This document shows positions 270-36,982 of a stretch of 64,000 bases of DNA, one piece after another. The position numbers and the translations under genes were made by a program. The DNA is from Macrotrachela quadricornifera (lineage: Eukaryota; Rotifera; Eurotatoria; Philodinida; Philodinidae), in the NCBI GenBank assembly GCA_022393335.1, contig JAJEKB010021314.1, positions 1,429,381-1,493,380 on the forward strand, read 5' to 3'. The number at the start of each line of letters is the position of its first letter. Position 1 is the stretch's first letter. The notes under the pieces are model-generated. The model was not told where the DNA came from, did no database searches, and saw nothing but the letters and a program-made list of their open reading frames with translations.

Positions 270-1976
270 TTAGAAGCCGATTAGTTGATTGTAATTTAGC
301 ACATATAATTCCAAAATTTTCTTGATAGTATAACTTTTCACATTTTTCAAGAAATGAAGCTGCGGTTTCGTGAAACAGTAACAATTCATCATAAGTTTGA
401 GAGCACTGAAGATATGATTCACACGCCTAATAAACCTGGTATAGCGTCTCTTCGAAGTAGGATCCGTAGTATCAAGAATTGTTGCGAAGCGGTGAGGATT
501 AGGAGAGGTGTCTGAAAATGTTTTTTAACCGAGATAGTACAAGGAACGCGTGAGCCATTGAAGCTCGCTAGACTCACGTCAGTCGAATGTGTTCATACCT
601 GTTTTCTTCTCTTCTTGTGCTTCACTTTTCCATTTGTCAACTTTGATTTCGGTCACAACGACAGCAGCACTTGTTTCGTGTTTCTTTTGAGCATCTGAAA
701 AACAGCAAAAATATCTATAGCAGTTTCTCGTCTATCCTATCACCCGAGCTTTGTTGTCTTGCAGGTCTATAATCAGTTTCAAGAAACAAGCGTCGGTTTT
801 TGAGAATACTTGCCAATGATTTCCACCCTCGAGAAAATAGATGTTAAACCAAATTCTGTCAGTTGGATTTTTACATTTGTGAAGTATTCTGAGATTTTGA
901 TTTAATGACCAGAACTTTTCAGAAAAACCTCTCTGTTCGATTTCTTTAGTAAGGAACGTTTGTTTTCCATTTTGAAAAAGGCTTTTCAATTTGTCAGCTG
1001 AAATCAGAAAGAGTATTGCTTATCACTCGCTCTTGCATATATGTGCTAGGAAGAAATGAACTATTAGTTTCCCCCTTTTCAACCACTTTTGAAGCCGTTT
1101 TCTAGTGTTTGGCTAGCTGAGAATTTCAAGTTCCAGGAACAGATACATGATGACGGTGTCTTGTCAACGATATTTGTCTCAAAATCAAACACACTCAATA
1201 TTGTCTATGATTCTCTTACCAATCGATCTTTTGTCCGACGGAGAGATGGGAATCACTGGTTCCAAAAGTGGAGTAGGAGACTCAATCTCTTTGAGTTGAA
1301 TCATGTGAAGATCAGGTGCTGGTTGTAATCAGGCGACAACTTTGAACTGTCGAGCAGGAGGAAGAAGAATTTCTTCCTCGGATTTCAAATACGAATGATG
1401 ACTGATATTTTTACCCGAGTCACAATCGATGGTGAAAATTGTTCTCGCCCCTGTTGTGCCCAAAAATTCTTCATCTTCGTGTACTTCAATGCTTGATATG
1501 CACGATGAGAACCCCCACCAAATGAAAGTTTTTTCTGCTGGGTATTGTTTGCTTAAGTCCATTTTCACTCCTCGATAGACAAAACTACGCGTGGGCGGGA
1601 GTCGAGCAAGAGCAGTAAGAATCAATTTGAGGTAGAGAAACCATGGTTTCAGTTTTTGTCGATCTTCATCACGAAGAGCGGCATTGAGGATGTAATAAAG
1701 ACACTTCGTGTGAGGCTCCCATTCCATCGTGTAGAGCATAATAGATGCTGATTCATCTTGTGACAGACCATCGGCAGGATCTTTGCATCTTTGTTTGGCT
1801 ATATCCACATAATCTTGCACTGAGGGTAAAATGGAAAGAAGTGGCTCGACGGCTTCTTCGAGTGACACCAAAGATTTTTCGTCATAACCTTTAATAGGCA
1901 TCAACATCTTGTGCGTTTCACCAGCTATGTCAGAGACTCGCATATTTTGCGTTATAGCTACGTCACCTGTGGCCAT
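270..1976 (-). pseudogene. NAD:arginine ADP-ribosyltransferase (ART) gene, interrupted
   Basis: Residues 1-215 (1976 down to 1332) form a mono-ADP-ribosyltransferase catalytic domain of the R-S-E class: Arg135 in YRG, Ser157/158 in GFSS, and the bi-glutamate loop EEE at 200-202, the NAD-binding and catalytic positions of arginine-specific ARTs. The frame meets TGA at 1329-1331, yet stays open and ART-like beyond it (PAPDLHMIQL follows at once) up to a good donor (GTAAGAG, exon end 1220, phase 1). A phase-matched exon follows from 997 (acceptor TTTCAG). Two more exon-like pieces, 694-599 and 511-270, have good splice sites and compatible phase and end in TAA at 270-272. Joining exon 997-744 to 694 is out of phase unless an internal donor near 875 is used. 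ARTs of this type are abundant in bdelloids. The TGA and the phase problem suggest a decayed or truncated copy. The ART domain is secure; the 3' exons are tentative. Confidence 0.75.
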
Positions 1977-4900
1977 TAGAACAGTATGATGTCTTAAATC
2001 AATCTTATGGAAACAAATTTCTGAAAAGACATAGAAACAATGATTTTATTGCCATCGACCGAATTTTAGTACTGTCAACCTGCAATGTCTGCAAATTCAG
2101 TCAAAAAAAAGACACACATATTATAATTAGTATACTCTCCTTGGAATTCGTGGTTATGTTTGTTTTAAAGGAATATTCTAAAGAGGACAATTATTCAAAC
2201 AAAACTAGTCAAAATCACCTACGGTTATCATACTCAGAATATTTTGATAAATCCGACGTTATTACACTCACATGACACACGTTTGCAACATAGAACGAAG
2301 CAAGACAAGAAAATGAGTAAAAATAGCGCTCTTACCAAACGAACGTGCCCTTTTTTTAACTGTTTTACGCATCGTTCTGATGAGTCAGTGATGTGACTTG
2401 CCTTACCTACAGCTGGTAACTATTGGTATTAAATATTCGGCTGTAGTGTGTACAACACTCTATCCGTCACACTCCGATGGCTTCTTTTAACGACTGTCTC
2501 AGGAGAAAAAAAAACGTTTTTTTTATTGTTCTCTAGTAAAAACGTTTCATCTATGGATGAAAATAGTCTGATTCATTATATTTTATTTTCTTGAGTAGAT
2601 TTCTTAGAAGTGGTTGATACTTCAAAGCAAGAAGAAGTTATAATGTACATTTCTCGTATACTTGACGTATTGGTGCTAGAAAATGAATCAATTCATTGAA
2701 TGATAATTTGATAAAGAGCTTCTCGTTTGGATTTGAAGAAGAGAAAAATATTTCCAAAATTTAGTAGCAATCATATTTGTGACTGTGATACATAATGATA
2801 ACATTGTTTTTCTAAAAGAGTCGATTATCTCTTCGCATTAACTATAGAATGAAAATCAGTTGTTGGTCTGTTTGTGTTTATCAATAGGAACAAGGCGATG
2901 AAGGACGACGCATATTGTAGTTGGGATTACCTTTATATGTATGGTTGTGTATGTAAAGAAAAGTGGAGATAGAAATTCTATTAGTTCATTTTCTTCACCA
3001 CTGAAGATAGGTGATTGAAAAAATATAACTCTGTTTGAAAATATATACATCTTGAGTTCGCACTTTATTAGGAGTGTCAATTTAAGTCCTCTTTGAATTT
3101 AATTTACGCGTGAATAAAATTATGCGTAAGCTTGACATAAAATAAATTTAGCTTATTTTTCTCCGTATGTAAAAGAAAGAGGCCGTATAAAACTGACAAT
3201 TGATCCGCAATGCAAAAGAAGGGAGATCGTTCGGATGTAAAATCGGCGCCCTCTATCTCGATCCTATAGTACTAACTTTATGCTTCTTTGTGGTATTCGG
3301 CACCATTTTAGATGTTTTTCTTCTATATTTCAATAAACAGATGGTTCTGAGTCATCTTAAATTGCACATCAATTGATAGTCCGTGATCGATTCTAATGGT
3401 GACATGTAATATGTTCATTGGTCAAGACGCTAATGCTTATCGATGCGGCTATATTGATGAAAGGTTTTCAGCGATCATGATTTGATCTTATTCAATGTAA
3501 CAAATGTTTGTCAGTTACAGGAAAACACTGGGATAATCGAAATGAAAAAGTCAGTTGCGATGAGAGAAATTAGAATAAATAATCTCTCGAAATTTTATTG
3601 TGAAAGTAGATGTAGAGATACAGTCGAAACGAGAAGAAAAATAGTAACGAAAGTTTGATTTCGTTTTGTTTCGAAAATCAGAATTACCCATCATCTTCAT
3701 TACTAATTGAGAAAGGTTTCTGAGAGCATGCAGCGAGATTGTGCTTGCCAATGTTCAAAGGATAAGAACCATACAACGGATATCACATGGTTGGAGCAGC
3801 CAACAAAACGGTTTCTAGCACGGTAATTATATCATTAGTCTACTATTCCATCTTTTGTGAGTTGACTGATATGTGCTGATTGAGTTAGAATTTAGATGAT
3901 GCTAGGGAAATTCCTTGCATCTGTGAATCGTATAGTTCACGTGCCTTGTAAAATTTTTTGATTATTTTATCTGCAGATAGAATTGGAAATTTGTTCATAA
4001 TATCGGTGTGACTATGTTTGCTCATTATGATGAGTATTTCTTCAGATTATTATTTTTGAGATATTACATATTACAGAAAAAATATAATTATGATCTCGTA
4101 ATGAGTAATGAAATTACCGTTTTAAAATATTTCTTTTGTTTTTGTAATGATATCATTTTCTCTCCATTCGAAATATTTACAGCTGTTGAAGTATTCGTAG
4201 GTGATTTATAGCGATTGATTATCAAATATACAATGAAAAGATTTTGTTCAAGATGTTATATGGGCAGAGAATTGAAATTGCTTAACTTGAGCATTTACAA
4301 GCTTTACCGCCTATTGCACTTTCGTTATACATCAAAATTGACTAACTTCGGCTGTTGTAAATTGTTGGCGACCATTGAGAACCGGAGTCAACGCAACGTT
4401 TAAATCAAGGCTTTTTATGACTTCAACGAAATGCACAAAGTCCATTACCAAAGTAATTTATTTTCATCTTAAATGCTATTGCAGCACGTCAATCGAACAT
4501 TGTGAATCGTGCTCAATTAATTACTAAACAAAAATCATCTTTTTTCGATAACGCTTCGATAGTCATAGAAAACAAGGCGGTTAGCACCACCATCGGATCA
4601 ATATTTCAAATGCAGTTAGCTATAGTTTTCCATCATCACCTATTATTGAAGTTCAATCATCTCTTCCATCAAAACAATTAGCTTTTCTTGCCAATGGTCC
4701 AAAGTATATACCTACTTGTCAAAATCATTTTTCATACTTATCAATCAAGCCAATTATTCTTACATAGTTGATATCAGGGACCTATATGTAGTAAGTTGAT
4801 ATAGTTATAATTGAAATCCCCGGAACATACCTAGAAACCTTCCGTTGTATGCGTTATCAAAAAAATATTTTGAATATATGCAAAAGACAAAGGCTCACAA

Positions 4901-6828
4901 AGAAATAGAAAGTGTCATTAATCCATGTATGAATCGTTATGATCAAGTCTTAACATTAATTGATTATTTGTTAAGAGATGATTCATGAGGTCATCGAGGA
5001 ATCGAGGCATTCGATAAAAATTTGTTTTTTATTTGATTTGATGTTCTCATTTTACTCAACATCATCTGAAATCTCTAGATCCAAATTTTTAGCGGATTTG
5101 GTTGAGTTGATGAAAGATTAGCTCAGTTTTACTATCGAGCACTTACAAAGCTATTTTGAAACTATGATAAAAAATCCTCAATATAAAGTTGAGTTATTTT
5201 AGCCGATAAAAAATTAACAAAACTTTTAGTGTAATATATTAGAAGATAGACCGTGAAAAGCTGAACAAAATGATGTACTTACATATTACTTTTCAACGGA
5301 CTAAAATCACTTTATTAGTTAAGTACTTGCGACCACTGTTTTTTTTTAAGTAAAGAGTATGTGGAATTCTTTCATTGTCTTAATTACCTTTCAGTCATTT
5401 TATGAGATCCCAGACTGAAATTTACATATATTGTACAACTTTTTCTTTTCTACAAAATGATTCTAAAAAAGTTTCAAAAAAAAACCGTTTACTGGGGGTG
5501 AAAAGGGACTGACAATGTTGATCAATTCTATAGTATTTATAGTGAAAATTTACGATATATTATTTTACATAAAAAAAAATAATAGTTTCAGTAGGCTATT
5601 GACTACAGTGAGTGTTTTGTGTATCGTCGCAAGTTTTTATCAATACATACGCGCTTCATAACGATTGAAATATAGGCATATGTTGTCATGTGTGAAATTA
5701 AATTTTATAGTTTGACCTTGTGCTCGTTTATGATCATGTTTAACAAAGAGTAGTATAAGTTAATAATAGAATTAGAGTTTAAAACAAATGCTTATGAAAT
5801 TAGTACAATAAAACGGTTGAAAGTATGGAATCGTCGATCAATACCACGAATCATGTAATAGTAAGAGATACATAAATATAAATGAAAAACTTCTCAATTA
5901 TATCCTTTTTCTTAAATATACTATCGAAAATGTTAAGGTGTTCTTGAAATTATAATTTCTTTTCTTATTATATGTAGTAATTTTAACAAATGAAAAGAAT
6001 ATTTGTGCTATAATCGTTTTAGACTTACGTTGCACTTGAACTTGAATGTCACGATTTATACATTGCGGGATACATTAATTGATAATAGACTAAAATTCAT
6101 AAAGATAAACAAGAATCTTTCAAACATTTTTTTCCTTAGTGTACATCGGCTTCTTAAAATAATACGTTGTTGTTCATTAATAATTCTTTTTAATCTTCTT
6201 GCTACATCCACATATGGTACTAATGAATTAAAAAGATCGAAAAGATTTATTAACGATCTGCCTTGATTTTCTTTTAAAAAAAATCAAGGTACAAAAAACT
6301 ACCATGAGGATGAAATACTTTTATTTCATGTTAGAACGCCCCCTATGACGCCTTTACCGGCGTTACCATCTTGACCACCTTGATATGTTTCAAAATCATT
6401 AAGAGAAGTCTTGATGAACTCATTTAACACTCTGATTAAATTTTGATCATTGAATACCTTTCTAAAATATCTGGAAAAAAAATTATTTAGATTTCCCATC
6501 ATTAAAATAAGTAGCTACTGGTCAAAATGTACCGTATGGTTTTTCATTGATCTAAAAAACAAAACAGTTTTGCCAATTGAATTTTAATATTAAAACATTT
6601 AACCGTTAAATTTATAAAATAATGTCTTCGATCTAACGCATATATTGCCTTAATATTGATGTTATCTTTTTGATAACTATTTTTCTAAGGATCGAGACGT
6701 ACGTTCATCAAACTGCAACATCTCGTTGTCCTAGAAATTGAACAAGTAAAAAAGAAAAAGACATATATAGAAATCATTACTTCGTCTGGAACATCGTTCA
6801 CAACGAAACCTCCTTTTACAAGGCAGTG
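1977..6828. other. gene-poor AT-rich intergenic DNA
   Basis: No convincing gene is visible. Open frames here are short (at most 87 codons), rich in F/I/N/S and lack splice context or recognisable motifs. The one segment with coding character is the possible retroelement remnant near 4.46-4.77 kb, listed separately. Confidence 0.6.
4460..4771 (+). pseudogene. possible retroelement (reverse transcriptase-type) remnant
   Basis: Codon choice here is less AT-biased than the flanks, and one frame reads LPSKQLAFLANGPKYIPTCQ at about 4661-4720 before a TAG at 4765-4767. A leucine-rich LAFLxxGPKYIPxCQ block resembles a segment I associate with the region upstream of the reverse transcriptase in Penelope-like or related elements. 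The frame is broken upstream and downstream, so any gene is dead. The family assignment comes from memory of a short motif and is weak. An old unrelated gene fragment is equally possible. Confidence 0.25.
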
Positions 6829-10270: not shown

Positions 10271-11895
10271 TACCGCTTCAAGAAAAATCTCATTTTTGGT
10301 GGGTCATATAAGCTCAGTGTAGGAAGAATAACTTTTGAACGATAAATGATAGAAAGATTAGACTTGCTTAGATTAAAAGAGCAGACATTAGGCTATCGAA
10401 TGATCACCTTGAAGTGAGAACTCATAGGAAAAATATTTTTGTCTGATGACGCACAAAACTTTCAATGACAACTAACACACCTTGATCGAACGTTAACCTA
10501 TTGAATATAGGATTACATTGTACCCCAGAATAGTCTCTTTCTAACGGTAAAAAGATCAGCTCACTAGCTGCAATAGTTCAGGAGATATTCCTCGTAGAGT
10601 TTTATTCATTTAATTTTAGCGTCGACATTAGCTGGGATTATTTAAATAAAACTGTTGCTTGGTACTAACGCATTCTTGTTAAATGAGAAATATAATTGTT
10701 TATTGTGGTCTCCAAGAAGATTTTCAGATTTATCAATTGAGTTCTTTCATCAATAAGATATATTAAAAAAATATTTCGAGAGAAACCCGAGGTAATGTAT
10801 TTTGAGATTTTTTACAAAAGATTCGATAGAAAATTCAAATTTCAATATGGTTTGTGTCAAAAATCTTCCAAGTAAGTTTTCTAACAAATGTGTGATAATG
10901 AACGAAATCGAAATGTTTTTCAACTTAAAATAAAGCTATAAGGAACCTGATAATGGTGATTCGTCCAATAAATTTGAATCACGTCAATCCTTTTATATCT
11001 CAAGTATCTTGAAAATATATTAAATCAAACATCATAAAAAGAGCGTATCAATCATTGTTGGCTCGTAAATATCTTGCCATCATTTTACTTATCTCACCTG
11101 AATAGCACATCAATGCGTATGTCATTTTAATGATATAGTATATATGGAGGCTTGTAGACGAGTAAATCTTTAGTCAATATTATTTTGCTGAATACGTATT
11201 ATAACAGAGTAGGGCAGATATTTTATGTTGTATTCAATGCAAATAGATTGACTAAAAGACAAAGAACAGGCATTTGAGAACAATGATAGTGTAAGTTAGG
11301 CGCATATATATAAAGATTAATTGTATTTTAAGCGAGACACTATCACAATTTCATTGTGATAGTGTATATCTTCATTGCCATAGGTTTGTTTCTGTAAACA
11401 ATCTTGTTTTTAAAGCTTCTATAATAGTAATAAGTGGAATAATGCAAGACGATCAAGAATGATGATATGCATACTTTTCTTAGTTTTTCTTGGTTTATGT
11501 ATCACAATTAATTTCTTTTATCTTTTTTTTGTTATTTACTATTCAACTTCATTGAGAAGAACAAACCGTACTGCATATAGGTCTCCTTTTTTATACAGTT
11601 TGACCGTCCTAGTTCCAATGGAAAAATAAATGCTTCTGAAAGAAAGGATCATTTTTCTTCCATCAAGTGGATATGAAACTCTTCAACAACATTCTTCAGT
11701 ACGGTTCATAGTAAGTGTATCAAAACGAAAGCAATAGAGATGACTACCAACCGACTAAATGTACATAGACACAATAGTACCATTGCTATGAGAATAGGCA
11801 TGTATTTCGTCATGATTTCTTTGATTTTTGTAGTAAGAAGAATATCATAAAGTAGATTAGTTTCATCGTTTATATATATATATATCGAAATATAG
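10271..11895. other. intergenic region upstream of the aminopeptidase gene
   Basis: No gene is seen. It contains a strong short hairpin at 11338-11364 (12-bp perfect arms, 3-nt loop, CACTATCACAAT/ATTGTGATAGTG) and a TA-dinucleotide run just before the aminopeptidase start codon. The start codon is immediately preceded by ATATAG, which could serve as a trans-splice or intron acceptor. Confidence 0.5.
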
Positions 11896-14800
11896 ATGCT
11901 AAATCACCATGTTGACAAATCGAATGAAATACCTACTCAAAAAAGTATGTATTACGTGCCAAAGAAACTATTTTGGCTTGTGGCACTCGTGTTGATTGCT
12001 ATTTTCATTACTCTACTTGTATTGACAATCTATTTTGGTGTTAATCAAAAAAGCCAAAATGATGTCAGTAATGGATTACGTACAACATTAACCAGTACTA
12101 CTCTTCCGACTGAAACAACAACATCGAATACTGTGACAACCACTCTGGCTCCTCTGCGACCCGTTGCACTCATACCTGATAACTTGCAAGAGCAACTCTA
12201 TGAATTGATTATTACGCCCGATCTTACCCATGAAACATTCACAGGTGAAGGAAATTATATATATGATTCTAAGGTGAAAAAGGAGCTTGATATAACAACA
12301 TGGGCGTTGCTGGCCTTTAGACGAGGAGGAACAATTGTCTCTCGTGAGACATTTGTTTTTTTTTTTGAAAGTGAAAGCGCGAGAAATGAAGTTTTTATTA
12401 CCGAAGTACTGAAAACTATGCTTTTACCTTAAAACATCTTCCTCAAAAATTAATTTTGGTCTAGACACATGCAGATGGACTAAAGTTTTCAGCGTATGTT
12501 AGAAGTGATGTAGAGAAACTGCAGTAAAATTTTTAGCCCTATAGTATGACATTTGACAGAGATATGATCTACATAAGAGCCAAAAATAGCCCATTTTTCT
12601 CTGTCCAGGCTCGTTTTATGTATTAAATTATTTTTTGTTTCAAAGAACATTTCAAGATTCCGAATTAAGTCAAAAAAGGGAATGACAAGTTAAATGACTC
12701 AGAAAATTCATGAAAAATGGGTGTTAATTTTCATAAGTAACTGTATGTATAACCAAAACCAAGGTTAATTTTAAAAAAAAAGGACTCTGGTAGGTGCTGC
12801 ATTTTGACGTAGTCTTTCAAACAAAAAAGAATTCAAATATACTGTATGAGTCGGGACAAAGAGAAATGATTTGTGCAATCAAAAGAGCATAAATTGGGAA
12901 AAAATGAACAATATCTTTCGTTTTCTTAAAAATAAGTTAATGAAAATCGTTGAAAATTTTGACCAAAAATGTGGAGTCGAAGGAAAAACAATAGCGTTAC
13001 TGGAAGAGCAGAAGATGGGCTATCTTCCCGAGGGCAGAATGCCTGAATATATCATACATTTTAAAGAAAACCTGTTTCTGGGAAAATCTTCAACTTTTCG
13101 GAAACACATTTGGAAACCACCACCAGTTTACACAAGGGCTTTTGGTCTTCTAAAGCTTTTAAGAAAATACTTTCTTGGTTTTCGAAAATATCAATTTGGA
13201 CATCTTGAAAGTATTTACGAATGCACAAATATTATATTCAAAGTTCTAATTAGTATTCTCGGAAACCAAAAAGGTATCTTAGGAAACTCATATAGCGAAG
13301 AAGATTCGTGTGGTATTCAAGGAGATATCTGAAAATATCTTTTCGATTTTCGAACTTTCTGAATCTCAAAATTGTATAAAAAGAAATCTAAATCGATTTT
13401 TGAATTAGTTTTCATCCTGCGAACCATCCTGGAGTTTTAATGAATCTCAAAATAATTATCACAAAATTTGATGAAAAATTTTCGACATCCAAAAATTTAA
13501 TTCTGTAAAAGCATCAAGCTCAAAATTTTGAAAAATGGATTATAGATTTGAGTTAACTAATCCCACAAGCCTTTGATCAAACTTAGAGTTTTGTGAAATT
13601 AATTTTCAAACTTATTAAAAAGAGTTGCTTTAAGTGCATACTACAGAAAGTGTTTATTAAACATTTCATAGAAAAGGTACTTTTAAGCTGTAATTGTGCA
13701 CTCTCAATAAGGATCAATTTATAAGGAAGTTTCAAATATATATGTTTATATGGCCGGTTTCGAATTCGGAGATGTACAAAAAAGTCAGGGTTCAAAACTA
13801 TGCTTTAGTGACGAAATTAGTTTGGCTCCAAAGTGAAAAATAATATAATATCTGTTTGAATCCTTTTAAGTGTTGTAAAGAGTGCCATTTTTTTAGGGTA
13901 TAGTGAAATTTTTATGACACTGAGAAGTTATCGTCGAGTTTTAGCGTAAAATTTCAGTCAAAAGTCGAGAATTCTACAATTTTAAAAAATGGCACTGTAG
14001 GGAAAATTTAGATCCGATCTACCATCATATGAGATTTCTGAGAGTTAGGCACTTTAAAAAGGAATAACATCTGTTATAGAAAACTCGTAGCAAGCGGATG
14101 CAGAGCATAACTTTCAAAGAGTAATTTTTTGTTAAAAATTTTTGTTGTTTCATTATAAACTCGATTAAAAATGACTCTATTTCAATTTAATGCTTGCTTT
14201 TGAGAACAATTAGAACTATAAAGATTTAAAAATTTGATCGCTTCGTTCTTAGAAATAGAGACAAGAGATAATTTAACGGGCATAGATGATGACCAGAAAT
14301 TTTTCAGTTGAATCTGTAACCTCCACATTTCATGATCCATCTTTCAGCTTACTATCATGTTCTGTCTAACTTTTTGTCAATTTGAAATTTGTTTTAAAAA
14401 TTTTAAGATACTCCATTTCTAATTCGATTCGATAGAAGATCAGATTTATCTTTTAGCTATGATATGACATTTTCTCTTATCTTAGGCGATCTTCTATTCA
14501 CGTTCATCTGTGTCAAGGCCACTGATCAAATGATTCTTCACATGGCAGACTTGCTCATTGAAAATTCCACTATACGCATTGTCAATTCATCCTCCAGCTT
14601 GTTACCTACATTTCTTTCATGGTCCTATGATGATTATAACGAATTTATGATACTCAATTTTTCATCGAGTTTTATACCAGGAACCACTTATACAATTCGT
14701 ATGATCTATGAAAGTGATATTAATCGTAATTTGCATGGCCTCTACATAAGTGATTATGTCGATGTCAATGGGCAAAAAAATACGTTTATGACTTCTCAGA

Positions 14801-17800
14801 TGGAACCTACATACGCTCGAAGTGTTCTTCCATGCTTTGATGAACCTGCTCGCAAGGCCATTTTTAAAATCAGTGTTCTACATGATCCTTCCTATGCGGT
14901 ATGGTCCAACGGAGAAATTGAGCGAATAGAAAGATTTAGCGATGGACGAATACTTTCGCATTTTACACCAACATTAAAAATGTCGACATTTCTACTGGCA
15001 CTCATTATGGCACCAATGTCCGATTTCGCCTGTCGACCAGATCGTCTTATCATATCCAAAAACATCAGATCGAGAGTATGTGGACGTGTTGATATTCTTT
15101 CACTTTTAGCTTATGCCGATGAAGTAGCCTATAAAGCATTAGAATTTTTCAATACATATTTTGATATTGATTATCCATTGCCAAAAATCGAACATTTTGC
15201 TGTTCCAGATTTTCGTGGAGGTGCTATGGAAAATTACGGTAAATACGGTTTTTTTTTAAACGAAACAAAAATCAAATGAAGCCGAATTAATAGTCGAATT
15301 TTGTTTTTCTTCCTAGGATTGTTGATATACACTGAATTAGGCTTGTTTTTCGACGAGAAAACCGTATCAGCTTCAAGAAAACAAGACATCACCATGTTAG
15401 TTTCCCATGAAATATCTCATCAATGGTTTGGCAATTTGGTCTCACCAGCCTCGTGGGGTGAACTGTGAGTCTCATTTATTTTTCGTCGTTTTTCATCTAA
15501 CTCTCTTCCTATAGATGGTTAAAAGAAGGTTTCGCTAATTATATGGAAACATTGGCATCTGACATTATCGAACCGTCATGGAAACTAGAGGAACAATTTA
15601 TTGTCGACAAGATCTTTGACTTTATGGAACCCGATTCGTTGCCAACATCGCGACCAATCAGTATTCAATCAACGAATCCAGCAGATATTTTTCAATTGTT
15701 CGATTTGATCACTTATGATAAAGGAGCAACACTCATTCGCATGATGTCGATGTTTTTGGGCGCTGAAACATTTCAACGTGGTGTTCGAATGTATCTGAAA
15801 GCATTGAGTTTTAGCTCGGCAACGCAACAGGATCTATGGAAATATTTGAGTGAAGCTGCAAATAATACGGTTGACGTAGGGCGAATTATGAATGGGTGGA
15901 TACGACAAGCAGGTTATCCAATTGTTGAAGTCAGTCGGGTTTATAATGCAGCCGAAGCTCGTATGATGATTAGTCAACGACCCTTTAGCCTTTTCTCGAC
16001 GATACCAAAACAGGACGAATGGTGGATTCCATTCAAATATTTAGAGCAAACATCTACAAAGGTAAATGAAGATTGATTGTTGATATAATAGACTAGACGG
16101 AGGAGAATTACTTAGTTCAGTCATAGAAACAAAAGTAACTAGTTGATATTTACAAGTCTTGAGTGATAATGTTGTGATTTTAACTTTCTTTTATTCACAG
16201 CAATTGACTGAAAGTGAACTTGTATGGTTGAATCACACATCAACAACATTGACAATTAACAGCTTAGATTCAGACTGGATCTTGGCCAATCCGAACTATC
16301 TCGGCATCTATCGTACAAAGTATGATCAGCAAAATTTTCGCCTACTTGTGACTCAACTTCAAACAGATCACACGCGCATTCCAACTATTAATCGAGGTGC
16401 TCTGATCGATGATACTTTTGCGCTGTCACGTACAGGTCTCATTAACGCAACTGATGCATACGAATTGATTCGATATTTGAAGAGTGAAACTGAATATGTT
16501 CCATGGATAGCGGCACTTTCAGCGATGAATCAACAAGAAGAATTACTTGGTGATCGTGATATTCTTATTGATATACAACGTTATTTTCTTGAACTTGTTT
16601 TACCAATCTATAATAAAATCGGATGGGACCCAATCGATCAATCAACAGATTGGCTTCGAACACTGTTGCAACCAAATATTGTATCGGCTGCTTGTCACTA
16701 TGGCCATCCAAAATGTATTGAAGAAGCACGCAGTGCCTATCGTCGTTGGAATTTGAATCCAACTCTTAATACAATTCCAGCTAGTCTACGTTCGATTGTC
16801 TATTGTACAGTTGTTTGTGAAGGTTCACGATCAGAATTTAATTTTTTATGGGAGCGTCTTCAGACAGAATCAATTGCCAGTGAAACATTGAATCTACTCG
16901 AAGGTCTTTCTTGCACTGAAGATCCATCATTGATTGTTTGGTTTCTTGATCAACATTTGAAGAATGAATCTGTCATTCGTGAACAAGATTTGCCATGGTC
17001 AATTGAAAATATTGCTCGTTCCCCACGAGCTAATCAAATTGCTTGGAATTGGATTCGTGATCATTGGTCAACACTTTTTGACAAATGGGGAAAATCAGAT
17101 ACCATTTTAGGTGATATCATCGAAGCTGTATCGAGTCGATTTGTTACTATTCGACATCAAGATGAATTCAAAGCATTTGCCGATTCAATTATTGATAAAG
17201 GTAATTGATACATTTTTGTTCTCTCATTCATCTAAACTTATGCTTTACTATATACTCAGGTACTGCGTCTCGTCAATTCCAGCTGTCCATTGACAAAATT
17301 AATGCTGGCTTACAATGGAATACAGCAAATCTCGGTTCAATCATTGCATTTTTTCGTTCAAACAATGCATCATCCATTCCTGGTCATCGTCTACCTTCGG
17401 ATATCGTTCCAATTCATTACGATCTCTATGTCAAACCCTATTTAAATATTACCAATGAAAATCTTCGTTTTTCAATGTTTGATGGACAAGTTCGTATTCA
17501 TTTCAATGTGACTCGTACTACAGATCGCATTGTTCTACACAAACGTTTCATTACCATACGAGAACCTATCGAAATAACTGGCGGTGTGTCTATAATACAA
17601 ACGATATTTAATCAAGATCTGGACTTTTTCACTATTGTACTAGATCGAAACCTTCAAGTAAACGAACAACATACATTAATATTGAATTATGTAGGTGAAC
17701 TAAAAAATGATACGGATGGTTTCTATCTCAGCTCTTATGTGCGATCGTCAGATAAAGTTCGACGATATTTGGTTGCTTCACAAATGGAACCGATCGCAGC

Positions 17801-20800
17801 ACGACGAGCTTTGCCATGTTTTGATGAACCAGCTTTCAAAGCATCCTTCACAATGGTAGTTGAACATGAACAACAATATCGAGCATGGAGTAATATGCCT
17901 ATTTTGAGTAGTACGAATCAATCGAATGGTTGGATACTAACACAATTTCAAAAATCTGTACCAATGAGTTCGTATTTACTGGCGTTAGTCATTGCTGATT
18001 TCGATTGTTTGACACGAAATAACACAGGACGTTTTAGAAATATTACAACAAGTATATGCGCTCAAGCAGAAAAAAAAGATGATTTAAACTATGCACTTGA
18101 AGTAGCAACACAGAATATGCGCGATTTTGAAGAACAATATCAAATAAATTATCCAATATCTAAATGTGATCATATTGCTGTGCCTGATTTTGACGCCGGT
18201 AAGGAACTAAAAAAAATATCTATCATTCATCATTCTATATTATTCAGGTGCTATGGAAAACTTTGGATGTATCATTTATCGAGAAACACGACTTTTTTAT
18301 AACAATCGTACATCATCGTCATCCAATAAACAAAGTGTTGCATTGGTCATTGCTCATGAGGTAAATTTGGAAGACATCCACCATTATGTTCATAATTTTG
18401 TTCTATTTCTTTTTGTTGTTTTTTTAGCTCGCTCATCAATGGTTCGGTAATCTCGTTTCACCAGCTTGGTGGGATGATTTGTGGCTAAATGAAGGTTTTG
18501 CAAAATGGATGGAATTCATTGGTACAAACAAAGTCCATCCAGAATGGGATTTATTTCAACAATTTATTGTTCAACGATGGCTTGCCGTCATGCAAGACGA
18601 TGCTGTATCCTTTTCGCATCCAGTTAACATGAAAATTACACGAAACGACCAAATGACAAGTATTTTCGATGCAATTACCTATTCTAAAGGTTCTTCATTA
18701 CTTCGAATGATGGGTAATTTTATGTCGAACGGCACATTTAATAAAGGTATAACACACTATCTCAACCGTCATTTGTATTCGACTGCAAAACAGACCGATC
18801 TCTGGCGAGCATTGACCGAGCAAATGTCTATTGATAGTAATGAGTTACCAAACAATACAAGTCTTGAAATGATTATGAGTACATGGACAGATCAAATGGG
18901 CTATCCATATGTTCAAATTACACGTGACTATGCTACTGGACGTGTTACAGTAAGTCAACATCAGTTCTTATTCGATTCAGAAGCACAACCACCCAAATCA
19001 CCACACAAATATTTGTGGTATATTCCGCTTAAATTTAAGTCATTATCAACATTATCATCAAGCATTGCATGGGTCAACCGAGAACAGATGAATGTGACAA
19101 CGGGTATAAATGTACAATCGCATGAATGGCTTTTGGCTAATCCAGATTTATTGGGTTTCTTTCGTACAAATTATGATGCACGAAATTGGAAAATGATCAG
19201 TGAACAACTCAAAACAGATCATGAAAAATTTACTATTATCGAACGAGCAGGTCTTGTCGATGATGCATTCAATTTAGCTCGAGCGAGTAAGTACAGAAAT
19301 AAAGCACAACTGAATTGATATAGTTATCATTTGATTTCTTTTTCTCTTGACAGACATCCTAGAAACATCTCTCGTATTCGATCTACTTCATTATGCTCAT
19401 TTAGAACGCGCATACATCGTTTGGGACCGCATTATCACAGGTTTTTTCTATATCGAACAAATGATAGCATCGAAAAGTTCAGATCTCACTCTGTACGAAC
19501 AATTTCAATCGTTTATGATCGATCTCATTCGTCCCATCTATAATCAACTTGGTTGGCAAGAACAATCAGCATTCACTACTGACAAATGGCTCGATGGGTT
19601 ACATCGAGATTTGATTGTATCGACCGCGTGTCGTCACAATTTAGATAACTGTATTCAACTTGCTCAAGTTCTTTTCTATCAATGGTTTAATCAACCGTCG
19701 AATAATTCAATTGAACCCAATCAGCGTCTTGTTGTCTATTGTACGAATGTACGTTTAGGTAGTCAAGCTGAATTTCAATTTCTTCTTCTTCAATATCAAT
19801 TATCGAATGATCCACAAGAAAAAGCACGAATACAATCAGCGTTGGCATGTACGCGTGACACAGAATTGATTCGATATTTGCTTGAAATTCATGGCAATCC
19901 TCAATTGAACATTATTCGGCGGCAAGATGCTCTTTCTGGAATACGAGCAATATGTCGAAATTTCATTGCCGAAACTGAATGTTGGGCATTTGTACGTTCT
20001 CGATGGCAACAATTATTTAAAGAATTTGGTGGATCATTAAGTTTTACTGAGCTTATCAAAGATGTTACAGGACGATTCAATACTAAACAACAATTGGATG
20101 AATTTGAACGATTCTTCGAGCAGACAATAGACAAAGTAAGTTGATAATTAGTTTCATTTTTTTTACATTTAGAAATGACTATTGATTCATATAGAATACT
20201 GCTCAATTTCAAGCGACAATCGAACGTATACGTGCGAATATTCAATGGATTGAAAAGGCAAAGCCCAATTTAGACGAATGGTTTATGAATCGAACTGTTG
20301 CTATTCGTCTGCCATTTGATTGGATTCCATCTGAGTATGAACTTCATTTTGATGTACGTCTTCGTGCAACTTATTTGAATAATGCTGAACCGGACACACG
20401 TTTTACAGGTCATACACGTATACTTGTTCACTGTAATAGATCAACAAATGAATTTCGTATTCATATGAAACAATTGCAAATATCATCTGTGACATTGAAA
20501 CGTCTCAATACATTGAACAATCTTATCATCGATTGGACATGGATATCATCATCTGAAATACTTATTTGCCGATTACGAGAACGATGTATGACTAATGAAA
20601 AATATGTTTTGGAATCAGAATATACAAACGAACTGGACAGAAATATGGGTGGATTCTATTTAAGCCGATACAATGTAAGAAATACAAGTACAGGTAATAT
20701 CACTACGCACAATATTGCAGGTACTCACATGCAGGTAATGAAAAACAGCAAAAACAAATCTTTCTCTAATTCATTATCTCATTTCTTTTAGCCAACATTA

Positions 20801-23389
20801 GCTCGGACAGTATTTCCATGTTTTGATGAACCAGGTTTCAAAGCTAAATTTAATATTTCGATCACACATGATCCTAGTTTTACTGTCGTTCGATCGAATG
20901 GTGCTATGCTCGACGGTGGTCAACCTCTACAACAATCCGATGGTCGTCATTTATCTCGTTTCGAGCAAACCCCTCCAATGTCAACATATCTCGTTGCATT
21001 TGTCTTGACTGATTTTGAATGTGTTTCAAGTGTAACAGCGACAAATATTGCAGTTAATGTCTGTGGAAGACCCGAAGCAATACGTAATAATGATGGCAAT
21101 TTTGCTCTTGAAGTAAGTATGAAAGTAATACCCTACTACGAAGATTCCTACAATATATCATACCCACTGAGCAAATGCGATCATTTCGCTTTACCTGACT
21201 TTCCAATCGGTACGTATTCTCGATTCTGTTATACATCATTTATTGTTTATACCTGCTCTCTTTCTCATAGGTGGTATGGAAAATTGGGGTCTAATTACTT
21301 ATCGTGAGACGGCTCTGCTCTACAACAATGTAACTGGCAATCTAGCTGATAAAAGACGGGTTGGCGAAGTTGTAGCACATGAATTAGCTCATCAATGGTT
21401 CGGTAATATTGTCACTCCACAATGGTGGAATGATCTTTGGTAAATGAAAAACTCATTGAATCAATATGACATTTTTTTTTCTCTGACCATTTTTACGAAG
21501 GTTGAATGAAGGTTTTGCTTCATGGGTCGAAGTACTTGGTCTTAATCATTCAAATCCAGAATTTCATTCTTTCGATCTATTTGTTATTGGTAAGCAATCA
21601 CTTGACAAATCTCTTGTAAAAAGAAAGAAAAAAATATCAATTATTTCTTGTCTTTTATCTTCTAGCCGTTGTACATCGAGCTCTGGTCTTGGATAGTCTA
21701 TACTCAAGCCATCCAATTAGTGTCGACGTTACTCTCACTCATCCAGACGAAATCAACTCCATATTTGATGCTATTTCATGTATATCCCATTCATCAAACT
21801 CTCTATTTTTTTTATCTTAAAAATGTTATCTTCTGTATACTTTAGATGATAAAGGTGCATCGATTCTTCGTATGATCTACACAGTTCTCAATGAATCGAC
21901 TTTCTTTCATGGTATCAGCAACTATTTAAACCATTTTCAATATAGTAATGCTGTGCAAGATCAACTATGGTCTTTCCTAACCGATGTTGCCAGTCCAATC
22001 GTACTCGCTGGTCATACTGTCAAAACTATAATGAATTTCTGGACTCTTCAAGAAGGATATCCGCTACTAACTGTCACTCGTAACATTACTGATAGTTCTA
22101 TTTTATTGTCACAAAAACGATATTCGCTTGATCCATATGCATCAAATCAAACATCAATCTATGTGAATCCATTTATATCTTTTCCATTTCAATGGTACAT
22201 TCCTTTTAATTATATGACTTCGAGAGGCTTATCATCATTCGATTGGCTTGCTCCAAATCAGACCCGCGTTCTCTCCAATATTACACTGGCTACCGACTGG
22301 ATTATTTTCAATGTTGATGAATTTGGATTCTATCGTGTTAATTATGATGAATTCAACTGGCAATTACTTATCAATGCATTGAAAACTGATCATACGCCAT
22401 TCTCAAGTGTTACACGAGCACAACTCATAGATGATGCATTCAATTTAGCCCGATCTAGTGATTTAAACGCTACTATCGCATTACAACTTTCAACCTATCT
22501 GATCAATGAAACTGACTATGTGCCCTATAGTGCGTTTTCAACCAACATTCAATATCCATTGCTAATGTTTAGTCAAAATGAAGGAAGCACTGCATATCAA
22601 AGTATGCAAATATTCATACAAACACTTGAAAAAATCAGATATGATGCATCTGGCTGGTCAATAAATAACGATCCTCAATCAACGGATTATCTTGCACGTC
22701 AACTACGTACTCTTATTATCAGTGATCTCTGTGCCAATGGATACGATAGATGTATCAACGATGCTGTTGCATACTATCGTCAATGGTATGAAAATCAAAA
22801 TCAAAATCCTCATCCAATTTCTCCAGACTCTCGAACTATTGCCTATTGTCATGGAATCAAAAATGGAACAACTAAAGATTATGAAGACATGCGAGAACTC
22901 TATAAACAAACCAACGATCAAGTCGAGAAGAACCGTTTTGGATACGCTCTAACATGCACAAAGAATGTCATTCTTCTCGAACAATTGCTCAATGCTACAT
23001 TGGCCAATGACTATATTCGCCTTCAAGATGCATCGAGATTTATCAACAATATCCGTTTACAACCTGGTGGTCAAAAACTCGTCTGGCGTTTTATTAGTCA
23101 ACAATGGTCACAGCTCGTTGCCAAATTTGGTAGCGTCAGTTTTACTCTATCAAATATTGTCGAAAATGTCCTGGAATATGTGAATACACAAGAAGAATTG
23201 CACACCATTCAACAATTTATGGAAAACACAGCCGATTTGTCTAGTGCCGAGAGAGCTTTTCTTTCATCTATCGAAAAGATTCAAGCAAATATTCGATGGA
23301 TGGATACTATTGGAAAAGACATTGCCCTGTGGCTCGATGAACATGTCGGAACAGATCTAAAAAATTCAAAATCATCGATAAAGATGTAG
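11896..23389 (+). CDS. triple-domain M1 (aminopeptidase N-type) ectopeptidase
   Basis: Fifteen exons join in phase to 8364 nt, 2787 aa: 11896-12244, 14486-15238, 15317-15464, 15515-16061, 16201-17200, 17260-18198, 18248-18360, 18428-19286, 19354-20135, 20195-20734, 20792-21209, 21271-21439, 21501-21589, 21666-21779, 21846-23389. A 24-residue cytoplasmic tail, one membrane helix (about 25-49) and a Ser/Thr-rich stalk are followed by three full M1 domains (about 90-930, 976-1830, 1868-2787). Each has the exopeptidase GxMEN motif (GAMENYG, GAMENFG, GGMENWG), the zinc site HExxH (HEISH at 398, HELAH at 1282 and 2186) with the third ligand in WL(K/N)EGFA, and a catalytic Tyr in Y(D/S)KG. Each ends in an ERAP-like helical domain. 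M1 enzymes remove N-terminal residues from peptides. There is no C-terminal anchor, so this is a type II ectoenzyme. The usual family length is about 950 aa; three intact sites in one chain is unusual. Separate neighbouring genes are unlikely, because no stop or start codon intervenes between domains. Confidence 0.9.
12245..14485 (+). other. 2.2-kb first intron of the aminopeptidase gene, repeat-bearing
   Basis: The donor G|GTGAAG and acceptor CTTATCTTAG bracket 2241 bp, against 49-139 bp for the gene's other introns. The join restores a typical M1 beta-strand start (TFTGDLLF). Around 12526-13040 it carries a dispersed repeat also found in the ferlin gene. A 153-codon frame at 12871-13332 overlaps this repeat and resembles no family I know. 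The rest shows no gene. Confidence 0.75.
12526..13040 (+). repeat. dispersed repeat, copy 1 (aminopeptidase intron)
   Basis: Shared blocks in the same order with 50236-50545: CTATA(G/A)(T/C)ATGA near the left end, TTGACAGAGA, then GTCCAGGCTC, and AGCAGAA followed by CTATCTT about 300-480 bp further on. The copies are diverged and differ in length. This suggests an old interspersed element of unknown class. Confidence 0.5.
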
Positions 23390-23807
23390 TTGTCTTTCAT
23401 TGAATTGTGAAAAAAGTACAGTTCAATCAACTGAATTAAAGAGAAACTTTTACTCTTATCTAAAGATCTCTAGATCATCGCTTATTCTTTCGGATATGAA
23501 AGGTTGAAGATCCTATACTAGAATTACCTCGTCTATCTTGCCATTTTTTTGAGTGTGCACTCTGTGAATAGTATATATTCTTCGATCCAATGCTTGGATC
23601 GAATTTTTGATTCAAAAGAATTTGAATTTTGCTGTTAAAAAAACTGACTTCTCGTTTTCCAATTCAGTTGAGAGAAGTATTCTGAAACAACCAAAAACAG
23701 ATAAACCTAACAATTGTTTATTATCTGAAGTAGAAAACAAGCAACTTGAAAATGGAGCATTTATTCATCATTGAAGGAGAATTCGGAACAATGATTCGAT
23801 TTAACTA
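23390..23807. other. intergenic gap between aminopeptidase and mariner
   Basis: No gene is seen. A perfect hairpin TTCGATCCAA-TGC-TTGGATCGAA lies at 23581-23603, about 190 nt downstream of the aminopeptidase stop codon, and may be a 3' UTR or termination structure. No other feature is recognised. Confidence 0.5.
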
Positions 23808-25049
23808 TTGGGTTGGTAAGAAATTTTTTGCGTCTTTTTCAAAAATTTTATTTTTTTCTTTCTAATACAAGAACACAACTATCAATCATTAATATATGCT
23901 CCATCACTATCTATGACTTGTTGCCATCGCTGTGGTAGAGAAAGAATCCCGTGTTCGTAAAAGTCTTTAGACTTTTGGTTGAAGAAGTTGAGGAGATCCA
24001 TTTTGATATGGCTCTCATCGTTGAATTTTTTCTCTCTTAAATAATCAGAGAGAGAACGGTACAGATGGTAGTCTGTTGGAGCCAAGTCTGAAGAGTAAGG
24101 CGGATGGTGAACAGTGATCCATCCGAGGCTCAATAACTTTTGGCATGTCGACTTTGCTACGTGGGGTCTGGCATTGTCGTGCAAAAAGTAAATACGATCT
24201 TGCTTTCCTTTGAGTTTTGCTGTAACCCGATCCAGTTGTTGACAGTAGAGATCAGCAGTGATGCTACAACCATCAGGAAGAATTTCCCAGTGAATGATTC
24301 CTTTGACGCCCCACCACACGCTCAGCATCACCTTCTTGGGGTGTAGATCAGGTTTAGGCGTTGCTACACCTGTTTGATCAGCGCTGAGTCATTGTCGATG
24401 GTACTCGTAGTTAATATACAACACTCACTTCTCATCACCAGTAATAAGATTGTGAAGCCATTGATAGTTGCGATGAGAAGTTAATAATTCCATACAAGCA
24501 TCAACCCTCTGCTGCAGCTGAAGCGGTGATAATTCATGGGGTATCCAAACTCCATATTTCCAAGTTTTGCCTAATTCATGCAGATGTGTTTCTACTGCAA
24601 TGTGAGAGCATCCAAGTCGCTCTGCTAAATACCTTGTACTCAATCGAGGATCTTGTTCGATAAGCTGCTTTAAAAGATCCATATCCACTTCCAGTGGTCT
24701 TCCAGTATGGGGTAAATCATCGAGTTCGAAGTTGCCATTCTTAAATCGATGAAACCAATGTTGTGCTGTACGGATGGAGAGTACATTCTTGCCCATCGTA
24801 CCACATATGTTGCTTGTTGCTTCCGTTGCTTTGCGACCCAAGCGAAACTCGTGAAGCAAAAGCACTCGAAGCCCTCTACGAGATAACTTCATTTCTGATT
24901 CAAGATCAATTTTCATTTCGATAATTTTACTGCTATTTAAACGGTATTCATACTACCTATATATATTCTTAATAAGGAATATTCTGGAACTTTCTCGGCT
25001 GCTCCAGGAAATTTTCGAAAAAAACGCAAAAAATTTCTTACCAACCCAA
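23808..25049 (-). mobile_element. mariner-type DNA transposon, full length
   Basis: The element is 1242 bp, bounded by near-perfect 33-bp terminal inverted repeats beginning TTGGGTTGGTAAGAAATTTT and flanked by TA at 23806-23807 and 25050-25051, the expected Tc1/mariner target duplication. A single transposase frame lies on the minus strand between the ends. Complete ends and one reading frame indicate a fairly recent insertion, but stops in the transposase make this copy non-autonomous. Confidence 0.93.
23882..24916 (-). pseudogene. mariner transposase with two in-frame TGA stops
   Basis: A 345-codon frame including the stop covers the whole mariner transposase without frameshift. The N-terminal helix-turn-helix DNA-binding half is followed by the catalytic DD34D triad: Asp in TGDEK, Asp in HDNARPH, and Asp in APTDYHLY exactly 34 residues later. 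Two TGA codons (24425-24427 after GDEK, and 24389-24391 after HRQ) stand where the family normally has Trp in GDEKW and nearby. Both are explained by a single TGG-to-TGA change. Other Trp codons in the frame are TGG, so recoding is unlikely. The enzyme cannot be made at full length from this copy. Confidence 0.9.
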
Positions 25050-25279
25050 TATGTAAAGGCTACTGTTTCACAGATGTATTTTCTAAATTAAAGCATGATT
25101 ATATATGATTGGAAAGAGAGACTTGTTGGAAGTCTATCTACCGCTTTATGAATTATGAATAACGTGCACAGCCATAACTCCATATAGTTGATGAACATCA
25201 TTACCAGAAAACATACTATTCTTCTTTGTCGCGCCGTTCACGAAGAATACCAGAAGAAAAAACAACTAGAGAGATTTAA

Positions 25280-35855: not shown

Positions 35856-36982
35856 TTAACCAATAGTTGTTGTCACTGGTACTTGTTGTTGTACATCAGC
35901 TTCATGTCCATATAAAAATTTATTTGCTTCTCCAACACCATGTTTGTCATGCATATCACTTATATATGTACCCAATCCATCAGATAATGGTTTATAATGT
36001 TCAAAAAAAAATGCATTTATTTGTGCACCTAAAATAAGAATTGTTGCGAAATAAAAAAGAAATAAAAGAAGAATAACAGCAAAACCAATTTGTCCTATTG
36101 AAAAACAAAAAAAAAAAAAGAAGAAACAAATATTTATTTATATTAAATAAATAAAATATAATTAATATACCTGCATAATTTCCCATAAATCGTCTAACAT
36201 ATAATGGAAATAAAATCATAAATATTTCAAGTGTACAAGCAGCTACTAATGCACCACACCATGTTACTTTAAATGACATTTGTTTATTTGGTACAAACCA
36301 ATAAATTGTTTCAAATAAAATAAATGCAACAAGTAATGAAAATATCATTCCAGCAAGAAATGTTCCAAAACGACCACCACCTCCTGGTATAATACTTAAT
36401 AAAGCTGATGGTGCTGAACTAGCTGCAAGCATTAGTGGTATAATTATAATAAATACAAAAAGCATTCCAAAAGCCAATATATTTTGTCGAAGAAATGTAC
36501 GTTCAGGTAAACGATAAATAATAGTCATACATTTATCAATAGCAATAAATAATCTAGATGAACCAAATAATGCAAATACTATACCAATAGCTAAGATTAA
36601 ACCAGCATCTTGTGATAATTTATTAAAAGCAAGATCTACGACCTTTAAAAATTGAAAATTATTATTTATTTGAATTCTTTTTTTTTTTATTAATTATATT
36701 TACTTGTCTTATTCCAGATTGTGTAGTATTATCAAATTTAAATGAATTAATAATTTTATCTTTAACTGTTTGTTGTGTATCAGGATGATTTTTTAAAATT
36801 AAACCTAATATTCCAAATAATGCAACAGCAATTGGAAGAAGTGCAATTAATAAATTATATGCTAACATTGCAGAAAAATCCATTGACCAATCATTAAGAA
36901 ATTTACGAAGAAAATGACGTATTGGTTTTGTTTTACGTTGACCTCCTTGAAATACAGCTGATGATCTTACATCATTTATCAT
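35856..36982 (-). CDS. YihY/BrkB-family integral membrane protein
   Basis: Three exons on the minus strand (36982-36704, 36642-36171, 36094-35856) join in phase to 329 aa. The N-terminal block DWSMDFSAMLAYNLLIALLP is the family's first membrane segment after an amphipathic region. GLILAIGIVFALFGSSRLF and the block with PNKQMSFKVTWCGALVAA match the family's conserved core, and about six membrane helices are visible. YihY/BrkB proteins are mainly bacterial inner-membrane proteins of uncertain role (once mis-called ribonuclease BN), not part of the standard animal gene set. Two introns and animal-type splice sites show it is a resident eukaryotic gene, not contamination. Horizontal origin is inferred. 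The C-terminal tail (about 45 aa) is hydrophilic. Confidence 0.85.

Follow-up and report, generated by a model that had tools for sequence, protein, structure and literature searches.

A bdelloid rotifer gene predicted to place three tandem M1 aminopeptidase units on a single membrane anchor

As a rule, aminopeptidases of family M1 are described as having one catalytic unit. A locus of the bdelloid rotifer Macrotrachela quadricornifera encodes three M1 units in direct succession and raises the question of whether these are to be read as one very large enzyme or as several enzymes lying side by side. The locus occupies positions 11896-23389 (+) of a stretch of 64,000 nucleotides (contig JAJEKB010021314.1, positions 1,429,381 to 1,493,380 of the forward strand), referred to here as the window. 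Our analysis points, with a probability of roughly 86%, to one gene giving rise to one ~322 kDa type II protein with three tandem units of the aminopeptidase N (APN) type on one anchor, which would descend from a two-unit ancestor by duplication of unit 1 in bdelloids. The fused frame, the intact motifs, their conservation and the position of units 1 and 2 beside the first unit of monogonont rotifers can be taken from the sequences themselves, and from these we infer that all three sites are active.

The gene was rebuilt independently from the DNA, resulting in 15 exons within 11896-23389 (+) and a joined length of 8364 nt including the stop codon. This reproduced the coordinates, exon number and length given in an earlier note on this DNA, as well as its junction positions (17200/17260 and 20135/20195) and the lack of any stop between the domains, the frame being open across both borders. 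Its count of 2788 codons holds if the stop is included; the predicted product itself has 2787 residues and a computed mass of 322 kDa. GT-AG ends were found at all 14 introns, intron 1 being oddly long (2241 nt) and the remaining 13 measuring 49-139 nt. An ATTAAA is located ~45 nt downstream of the stop codon. Immediately 5' of the start ATG stands an AG (11894-11898), which could serve the addition of a spliced leader at the 5' end or have arisen by chance.

Every unit carries the motifs expected of an M1 exopeptidase, just as the earlier note had described. GxMEN is present as GAMEN, GAMEN and GGMEN at residues 362, 1246 and 2150, the zinc motif HExxHx18E at residues 398, 1282 and 2186, and the catalytic Tyr within FDxI(S/T)Y at residues 479, 1363 and 2269. 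In the genome search, PF01433 (Peptidase_M1) matched units 1, 2 and 3 with best-stretch E values of 4.5e-31, 1.7e-44 and 3.3e-24, respectively, and an M1 profile built in this study matched residues 16-967, 967-1863 and 1865-2774, each unit spanning the profile. Pairwise identity among the three units is ~34%. On the Rotaria socialis orthologue (P0001), M1_N, Peptidase_M1 and ERAP1_C were each recognized in three stretches, Peptidase_M1 being the one of these three families that was also scanned on the window gene itself; the NCBIfam models matching P0001 were restricted to those of bacterial-type aminopeptidase N and leukotriene-A4 hydrolase. A scan with Rfam at gathering thresholds gave no match within the 64-kb window. 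Residues 25-43 form the sole transmembrane segment, being the single stretch of the whole protein that exceeds the hydropathy threshold (1.9 in a 19-residue window). The predicted protein thereby fits a type II membrane ectoenzyme with a short cytoplasmic tail, and the one frame, one transmembrane segment and intact motifs lend support to the earlier proposal of a single membrane protein with three complete-looking active sites. In a structure-database search with unit 1, the closest solved structure was aminopeptidase N (7u0l, E 1.1e-138). Unit 1 aligned over almost the entire ectodomain of this enzyme (APN/CD13), and HExxHx18E, GxMEN, the Tyr, the type II anchor and an ERAP1_C-like part are common to both. 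APN has one catalytic unit and ~960 residues per chain, whereas the window protein has three, departing from a habit of the family that is usual but not definitive. APN dimerizes via its C-terminal part; in the window protein, by contrast, this part continues directly into the next unit.

The borders between the units are decisive for the possibility, raised in the earlier note, that three tandem genes share one transcript, from which cleavage and spliced-leader trans-splicing produce three mRNAs, one for each enzyme. Bdelloids do have spliced-leader trans-splicing, and the AG in front of the first ATG is compatible with a leader acceptor at the extreme 5' end. However, neither border shows a stop or an additional transmembrane segment, and both lie inside exons. 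Exon 6 (17260..18198) runs from the last unit 1 helix through the hinge into the N-terminal part of unit 2, as judged from the gene model, the alignment and a structure model of a homologous junction, and exon 10 (20195..20734) likewise encodes the last helix of unit 2, the hinge and the start of unit 3. The two border introns, with a length of 59 nt each, contain neither AATAAA nor ATTAAA. Among nine bdelloid proteins, border 1 (residues 926-975) is 46-80% and border 2 (residues 1821-1875) 56-85% identical to the window protein. Furthermore, four relatives on other public contigs (P0090, P0093, P0098 and P0103) cross border 1 in a single frame lacking the intron 5 of the window gene. Three of them extend back to the site of intron 4, which is absent in all three; P0093, P0098 and P0103 continue into unrelated, intron-like letters after DAG at the site of intron 6, and P0098 also begins in unrelated letters ahead of the place of intron 3. 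The four frames appear to be unspliced genomic DNA and seem to place border 1 within one exon in those relatives. Together with the open, conserved borders, the shared exons and a layout kept across bdelloids, this makes separate mRNAs very unlikely; with no stop or gap between the units, an origin from an operon, trans-splicing or separate genes was rejected, and we consider the splitting of a common transcript highly improbable.

A second line of evidence comes from the other haplotype, represented by C4554, which is collinear with positions 5899-33337 of the window apart from some insertions on both sides (30 kb of C4554 compared). The gene copy at C4554:470897-459703 comprises 15 exons of identical lengths and 8364 nt, without indels or premature stop and with intact splice sites. 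Between the haplotypes, the synonymous divergence (Ks) is 0.059 and the nonsynonymous divergence (Ka) 0.013, corresponding to a Ka/Ks of 0.22 overall and of 0.19, 0.22 and 0.22 for units 1, 2 and 3, respectively. The gene is under selection as a single reading frame. A search of the 450-Mb assembly gave at least 81 M1 matches, among which those listed show that three successive units occur only on the contig of the window and on its partner C4554. C420/C421 carry two M1 stretches ~5 kb apart, the second of which matches homologues from residue 22 on and is probably a gene with its own N-terminus.

Searching with the complete sequence of the predicted protein yielded 81 proteins (E <= 0.001) from 2291 candidates. 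Three-unit homologues with 61-81% identity were found in Rotaria, Adineta and Didymodactylos. The near-full-length bdelloid proteins (P0001-P0009; 2573-2796 aa) stem from Rotaria socialis, two Rotaria sp., Adineta steineri, A. vaga, A. ricciae and Didymodactylos, some lacking the N-terminus; all nine possess three HExxHx18E and three GxMEN motifs. The tandem arrangement, which the earlier note had proposed to look for in other bdelloids, is hence not confined to Macrotrachela. Rotaria and Adineta proteins split into two groups, a and b, each containing both genera, the window gene belonging to group a. When a group b copy was sought in the window genome with P0006, the search yielded, apart from the window gene, its partner and weaker M1 loci, nothing more than a broken remnant on C4074. 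At this site (C4074:~223688-224369; L027 ~4688-5369), parts of unit 1 that are distant in intact homologues are now adjacent, and the six-frame match contains several stops.

Are all three units working enzymes? The site corresponding to Gln-Met-Gln of rabbit aminopeptidase N reads QME in unit 1 of all nine bdelloid proteins tabulated with three units, the window protein included, and also in unit 1 of the shorter models P0015 and P0016. Unit 2 shows QME in eight of the nine and QMA in R. socialis copy a; unit 3 shows HMQ in 9/9. Following work on ERAP1, ERAP2 and aminopeptidase A, the first residue of this site presumably shapes the S1 pocket and the last one helps to hold the free N-terminus. 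Units 1 and 2 (Gln/Glu) may therefore favor other N-terminal residues than unit 3 (His/Gln). The same deviation could be taken as a sign that only some units of the fused enzyme work and the others serve in substrate binding or as scaffold, as in carboxypeptidase D, one of whose three units is inactive: the S1/anchor pair of unit 3 differs in 9/9 tabulated bdelloid proteins with this unit, and the anchor Glu of unit 2 is lost in R. socialis copy a and in Rotaria sordida P0015. We regard a partly inactive chain as rather unlikely, given that GxMEN and HExxHx18E are intact in all units of the nine near-full-length proteins, selection is roughly equal across the three units and a Gln at the anchor site is also present in rabbit aminopeptidase N. 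The likeliest use of the chain would be as an ectoenzyme of the gut, combining several specificities on a single anchor much as sucrase-isomaltase does for sugars. Sucrase-isomaltase, lactase, somatic ACE and carboxypeptidase D are tandem-domain surface enzymes of mammals, and share with the window protein the design of several catalytic units of the same family on one membrane anchor; they belong to unrelated enzyme families, restricting the analogy to design.

How the units are connected was approached by a structure model of the homologous border 1 (P0090 together with 15 aligned proteins), which was of middling quality with a mean predicted local distance difference test score (pLDDT) of 72.3 and a predicted template modeling score (pTM) of 0.53. 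In the model, the last helix comprises 33 residues (510-542) and is followed by a loop whose pLDDT is <50 (544-553) and, at residue 559, by the first strand belonging to the next unit. Porcine aminopeptidase N (5lds, E 6.3e-26) was the top match of the model in the PDB. According to this model, the units look like beads on a short hinge, with their relative placing left unfixed. A short and poorly ordered hinge may be exposed, as would suit a polyprotein in which a protease divides the one chain into three enzymes, either free or in complex. Such a cut would release units 2 and 3, the anchor being present on unit 1 only, and we judge processing of this kind to be unlikely.

The history of the array was inferred from a tree of 40 units (LG+C20, 874 columns; supports given as bootstrap/Shimodaira-Hasegawa-like approximate likelihood ratio test, SH-aLRT). 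Bdelloid units 1 and 2 are sisters (98/91) and group with unit 1 of the monogonont Brachionus (99/97), and all rotifer units, including those of Seison, form one group (94/92). Within the latter, no placement is supported for unit 3 of bdelloids, for unit 2 of Brachionus or for the Seison units, whose branches are very long. Two groupings were rejected by the approximately unbiased (AU) test: a bdelloid-only triplication with all bdelloid units in one clade (p 0.008) and the four Brachionus units as one clade (p 0.006). Since bdelloid units 1 and 2 group with monogonont unit 1, the tandem array is most simply read as older than the divergence of bdelloids from monogononts, with its first unit doubled in the bdelloid line. 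The two-unit proteins of monogononts (Brachionus P0044 and P0047; P0221) resemble the bdelloid ones in having one transmembrane segment and none between the units, and in a unit 1 affiliated to bdelloid units 1 and 2; they differ in that bdelloids have one unit more. P0221, whose two-unit frame of 1912 aa covers 98% of its 5856-nt contig, has the appearance of a rotifer mRNA, both its units grouping with Brachionus calyciflorus.

Tandem M1 proteins are also predicted for animals far from rotifers, with the consequence that the statement of the earlier note that M1 enzymes are normally single-domain chains was too strong and that the bdelloid architecture is neither unique nor as unusual as held there. 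Candidate searches were length-filtered for multi-unit sizes, so that the following counts are not frequencies, and most of the multi-unit proteins are gene predictions. Arrays of 2-4 units are predicted in molluscs, Lingula, Hymenoptera, chelicerates and sea stars, and one of five in a thrips model (P0026). Lingula as well as oyster and mussel have four units, venerid clams two, and many Hymenoptera and chelicerates three; two sea-star models (P0204, P0208) have three units, the first without its N-terminal part. Among the 81 homologues of the whole-protein search, 72 contain at least two near-complete units, 55 of them without and 17 with a hydrophobic segment at a junction. A further search (best 120 of 1052) gave 85 newly found proteins, 83 of which have at least two units, 78 of these without a junction hydrophobic segment. 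In seven cases, three-unit frames (2622-2729 aa) take up most of their contig, namely 88-97% for P0214, P0222, P0237, P0238, P0243 and P0264 and 75% for P0280; these contigs look like single mRNAs. A further two-unit frame (P0066; 1820 aa on a 6261-nt contig, no junction hydrophobic segment) was closest, within the set of proteins compared, to P0114 of the cephalopod Argonauta hians (40%). The arrays of other animals resemble the bdelloid one in a spacing of mostly ~860-900 residues, mostly intact motifs and mostly no junction hydrophobic segment. Many hymenopteran arrays have a C-terminal hydrophobic tail, as a lipid anchor (glycosylphosphatidylinositol, GPI) would need, in contrast to the N-terminal anchor of bdelloids. 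In FastTree trees of units from the wider animal set, which contain some weak or odd placements (e.g., P0066 unit 1), the units cluster by lineage in Lingula, Hymenoptera, Acanthaster and chelicerates and largely so in molluscs, which implies that the arrays either are of separate origin or were homogenized within arrays.

The same survey bears on the suspicion that three neighboring genes have been falsely joined, both in our model and in public annotation. Such joins may occur: a hydrophobic segment lies ahead of later units in Physella P0022, Patiria P0053 and Polymixia P0065, and some of the 17 proteins with a junction hydrophobic segment may be false joins. No such segment was seen in the window gene or in the scanned bdelloid orthologues, the 59-nt border introns leave no space for a promoter, and both haplotypes agree. 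With units 2 and 3 lacking a membrane anchor of their own at their start, a false fusion of single-unit genes was rejected, and we hold an artifact of this kind to be extremely improbable. Instead, judging from the relatives in rotifers and other animal groups, aminopeptidases with several units seem to be real and to occur fairly widely.

Several observations weigh against one active three-unit protein with the history outlined above. The product of the window gene is a prediction from genomic DNA. Two zinc motifs instead of three are seen in six bdelloid models of lesser length (P0010-P0012, P0015-P0017; 1634-1862 aa); P0010 and P0011 contain the beginning of unit 3, and P0012, P0015, P0016 and P0017 stop after unit 2. 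Unit 2 of P0015 deviates with TMA at the anchor site and YNSLVY around the Tyr, and R. socialis copy a has Ala in place of Glu at the same anchor site. An intronless form was found for border 1 only and none for border 2. Border 1 has a Ka/Ks of 0.91 between the haplotypes, a value resting on four differences only; border 2 shows no difference, and both segments are uninformative taken alone. Holding bdelloid unit 3 and Brachionus unit 2 together lowers the likelihood by 0.35 log units (AU p 0.50), and this grouping is neither supported nor rejected; the groups for the AU tests were picked after an initial tree had been inspected.

The remaining exons distribute the functional parts over the gene as follows. 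Exon 1 (11896..12244) encodes the cytoplasmic tail, the transmembrane segment, a Thr-rich stalk and the start of unit 1, based on the gene model, hydropathy and aligned N-termini. Intron 1 (12245..14485) contains, by comparison of the haplotypes, a stretch of ~287 bp (13372-13658) that is absent from the other haplotype. Unit 1 continues with its N-terminal part, the SQMEP site and GAMEN (15220-15234) in exon 2 (14486..15238), the zinc motif HEISH (15406-15420) in exon 3 (15317..15464), the third zinc ligand Glu and the catalytic Tyr in exon 4 (15515..16061) and the bulk of its ERAP1_C-like part in exon 5 (16201..17200). After the border in exon 6, unit 2 has GAMEN and the start of HELAH in exon 7 (18248..18360), the remainder of the zinc motif, the third Glu and the catalytic Tyr in exon 8 (18428..19286) and the ERAP1_C-like part in exon 9 (19354..20135). 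In unit 3, the THMQ/PTLAR site straddles the join of exon 10 and exon 11 (20792..21209), the latter holding the N-terminal part; GGMEN and HELAH (21378-21392) follow in exon 12 (21271..21439), the third zinc ligand Glu in exon 13 (21501..21589), the sequence as far as the catalytic Tyr in exon 14 (21666..21779) and the remaining unit, the C-terminus and the stop in exon 15 (21846..23389), all on the plus strand. Introns 6 and 11 match in place and phase between units 2 and 3, which fits the expectation for a tandem duplication; most other introns differ.

Approximately 0.4 kb past the stop of the gene lies a mariner-type transposon (23807-25051) with matching terminal inverted repeats, which is present only in the haplotype of the window (TA target) and has internal stops in its minus-strand transposase frame. 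Elsewhere in the window, an open frame at 36004-36693 (-) matches the BrkB family (PF03631, E 1.8e-18), which is mainly bacterial, and is possibly a transferred gene. Another one at 1329-2042 (-) matches NAD:arginine ADP-ribosyltransferase (PF01129, E 7.6e-13).

Taken as one protein, the product would be anchored at the cell surface by its single N-terminal transmembrane segment, with three APN-type units in tandem, each joined to the next through its last helix and a short hinge and each holding the residues for zinc binding and removal of the N-terminal residue. A two-unit ancestor shared with monogononts would have gained the third unit by duplication of the first in the bdelloid line. Plausibly in the gut, the protein would trim peptides as a multi-specific enzyme; nothing seen here points to true processivity. 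In a more tentative generalization, to which we assign slightly less than even odds, tandem M1 ectoaminopeptidases may be overlooked, recurrent surface enzymes of animals, built separately in rotifers, molluscs, brachiopods, Hymenoptera, chelicerates and echinoderms, with the bdelloid form as a multi-specific trimming machine having differing pockets on one anchor. Public homologues are already named Aminopeptidase N, putative aminopeptidase-2, glutamyl aminopeptidase or uncharacterized. A literature search on tandem, multi-domain or rotifer aminopeptidases and on trans-splicing in bdelloids returned no title or abstract on tandem M1 proteins, which is weak evidence of novelty as subscription journals are poorly covered. 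The three-unit bdelloid chain, the two-unit form of the sister rotifers and the look-alike arrays in other phyla would provide a natural series of unit numbers, allowing one to ask why enzymes for digestion or peptide trimming are linked on a shared anchor in animals, and the change of pocket residues between units makes a divided specificity directly testable.

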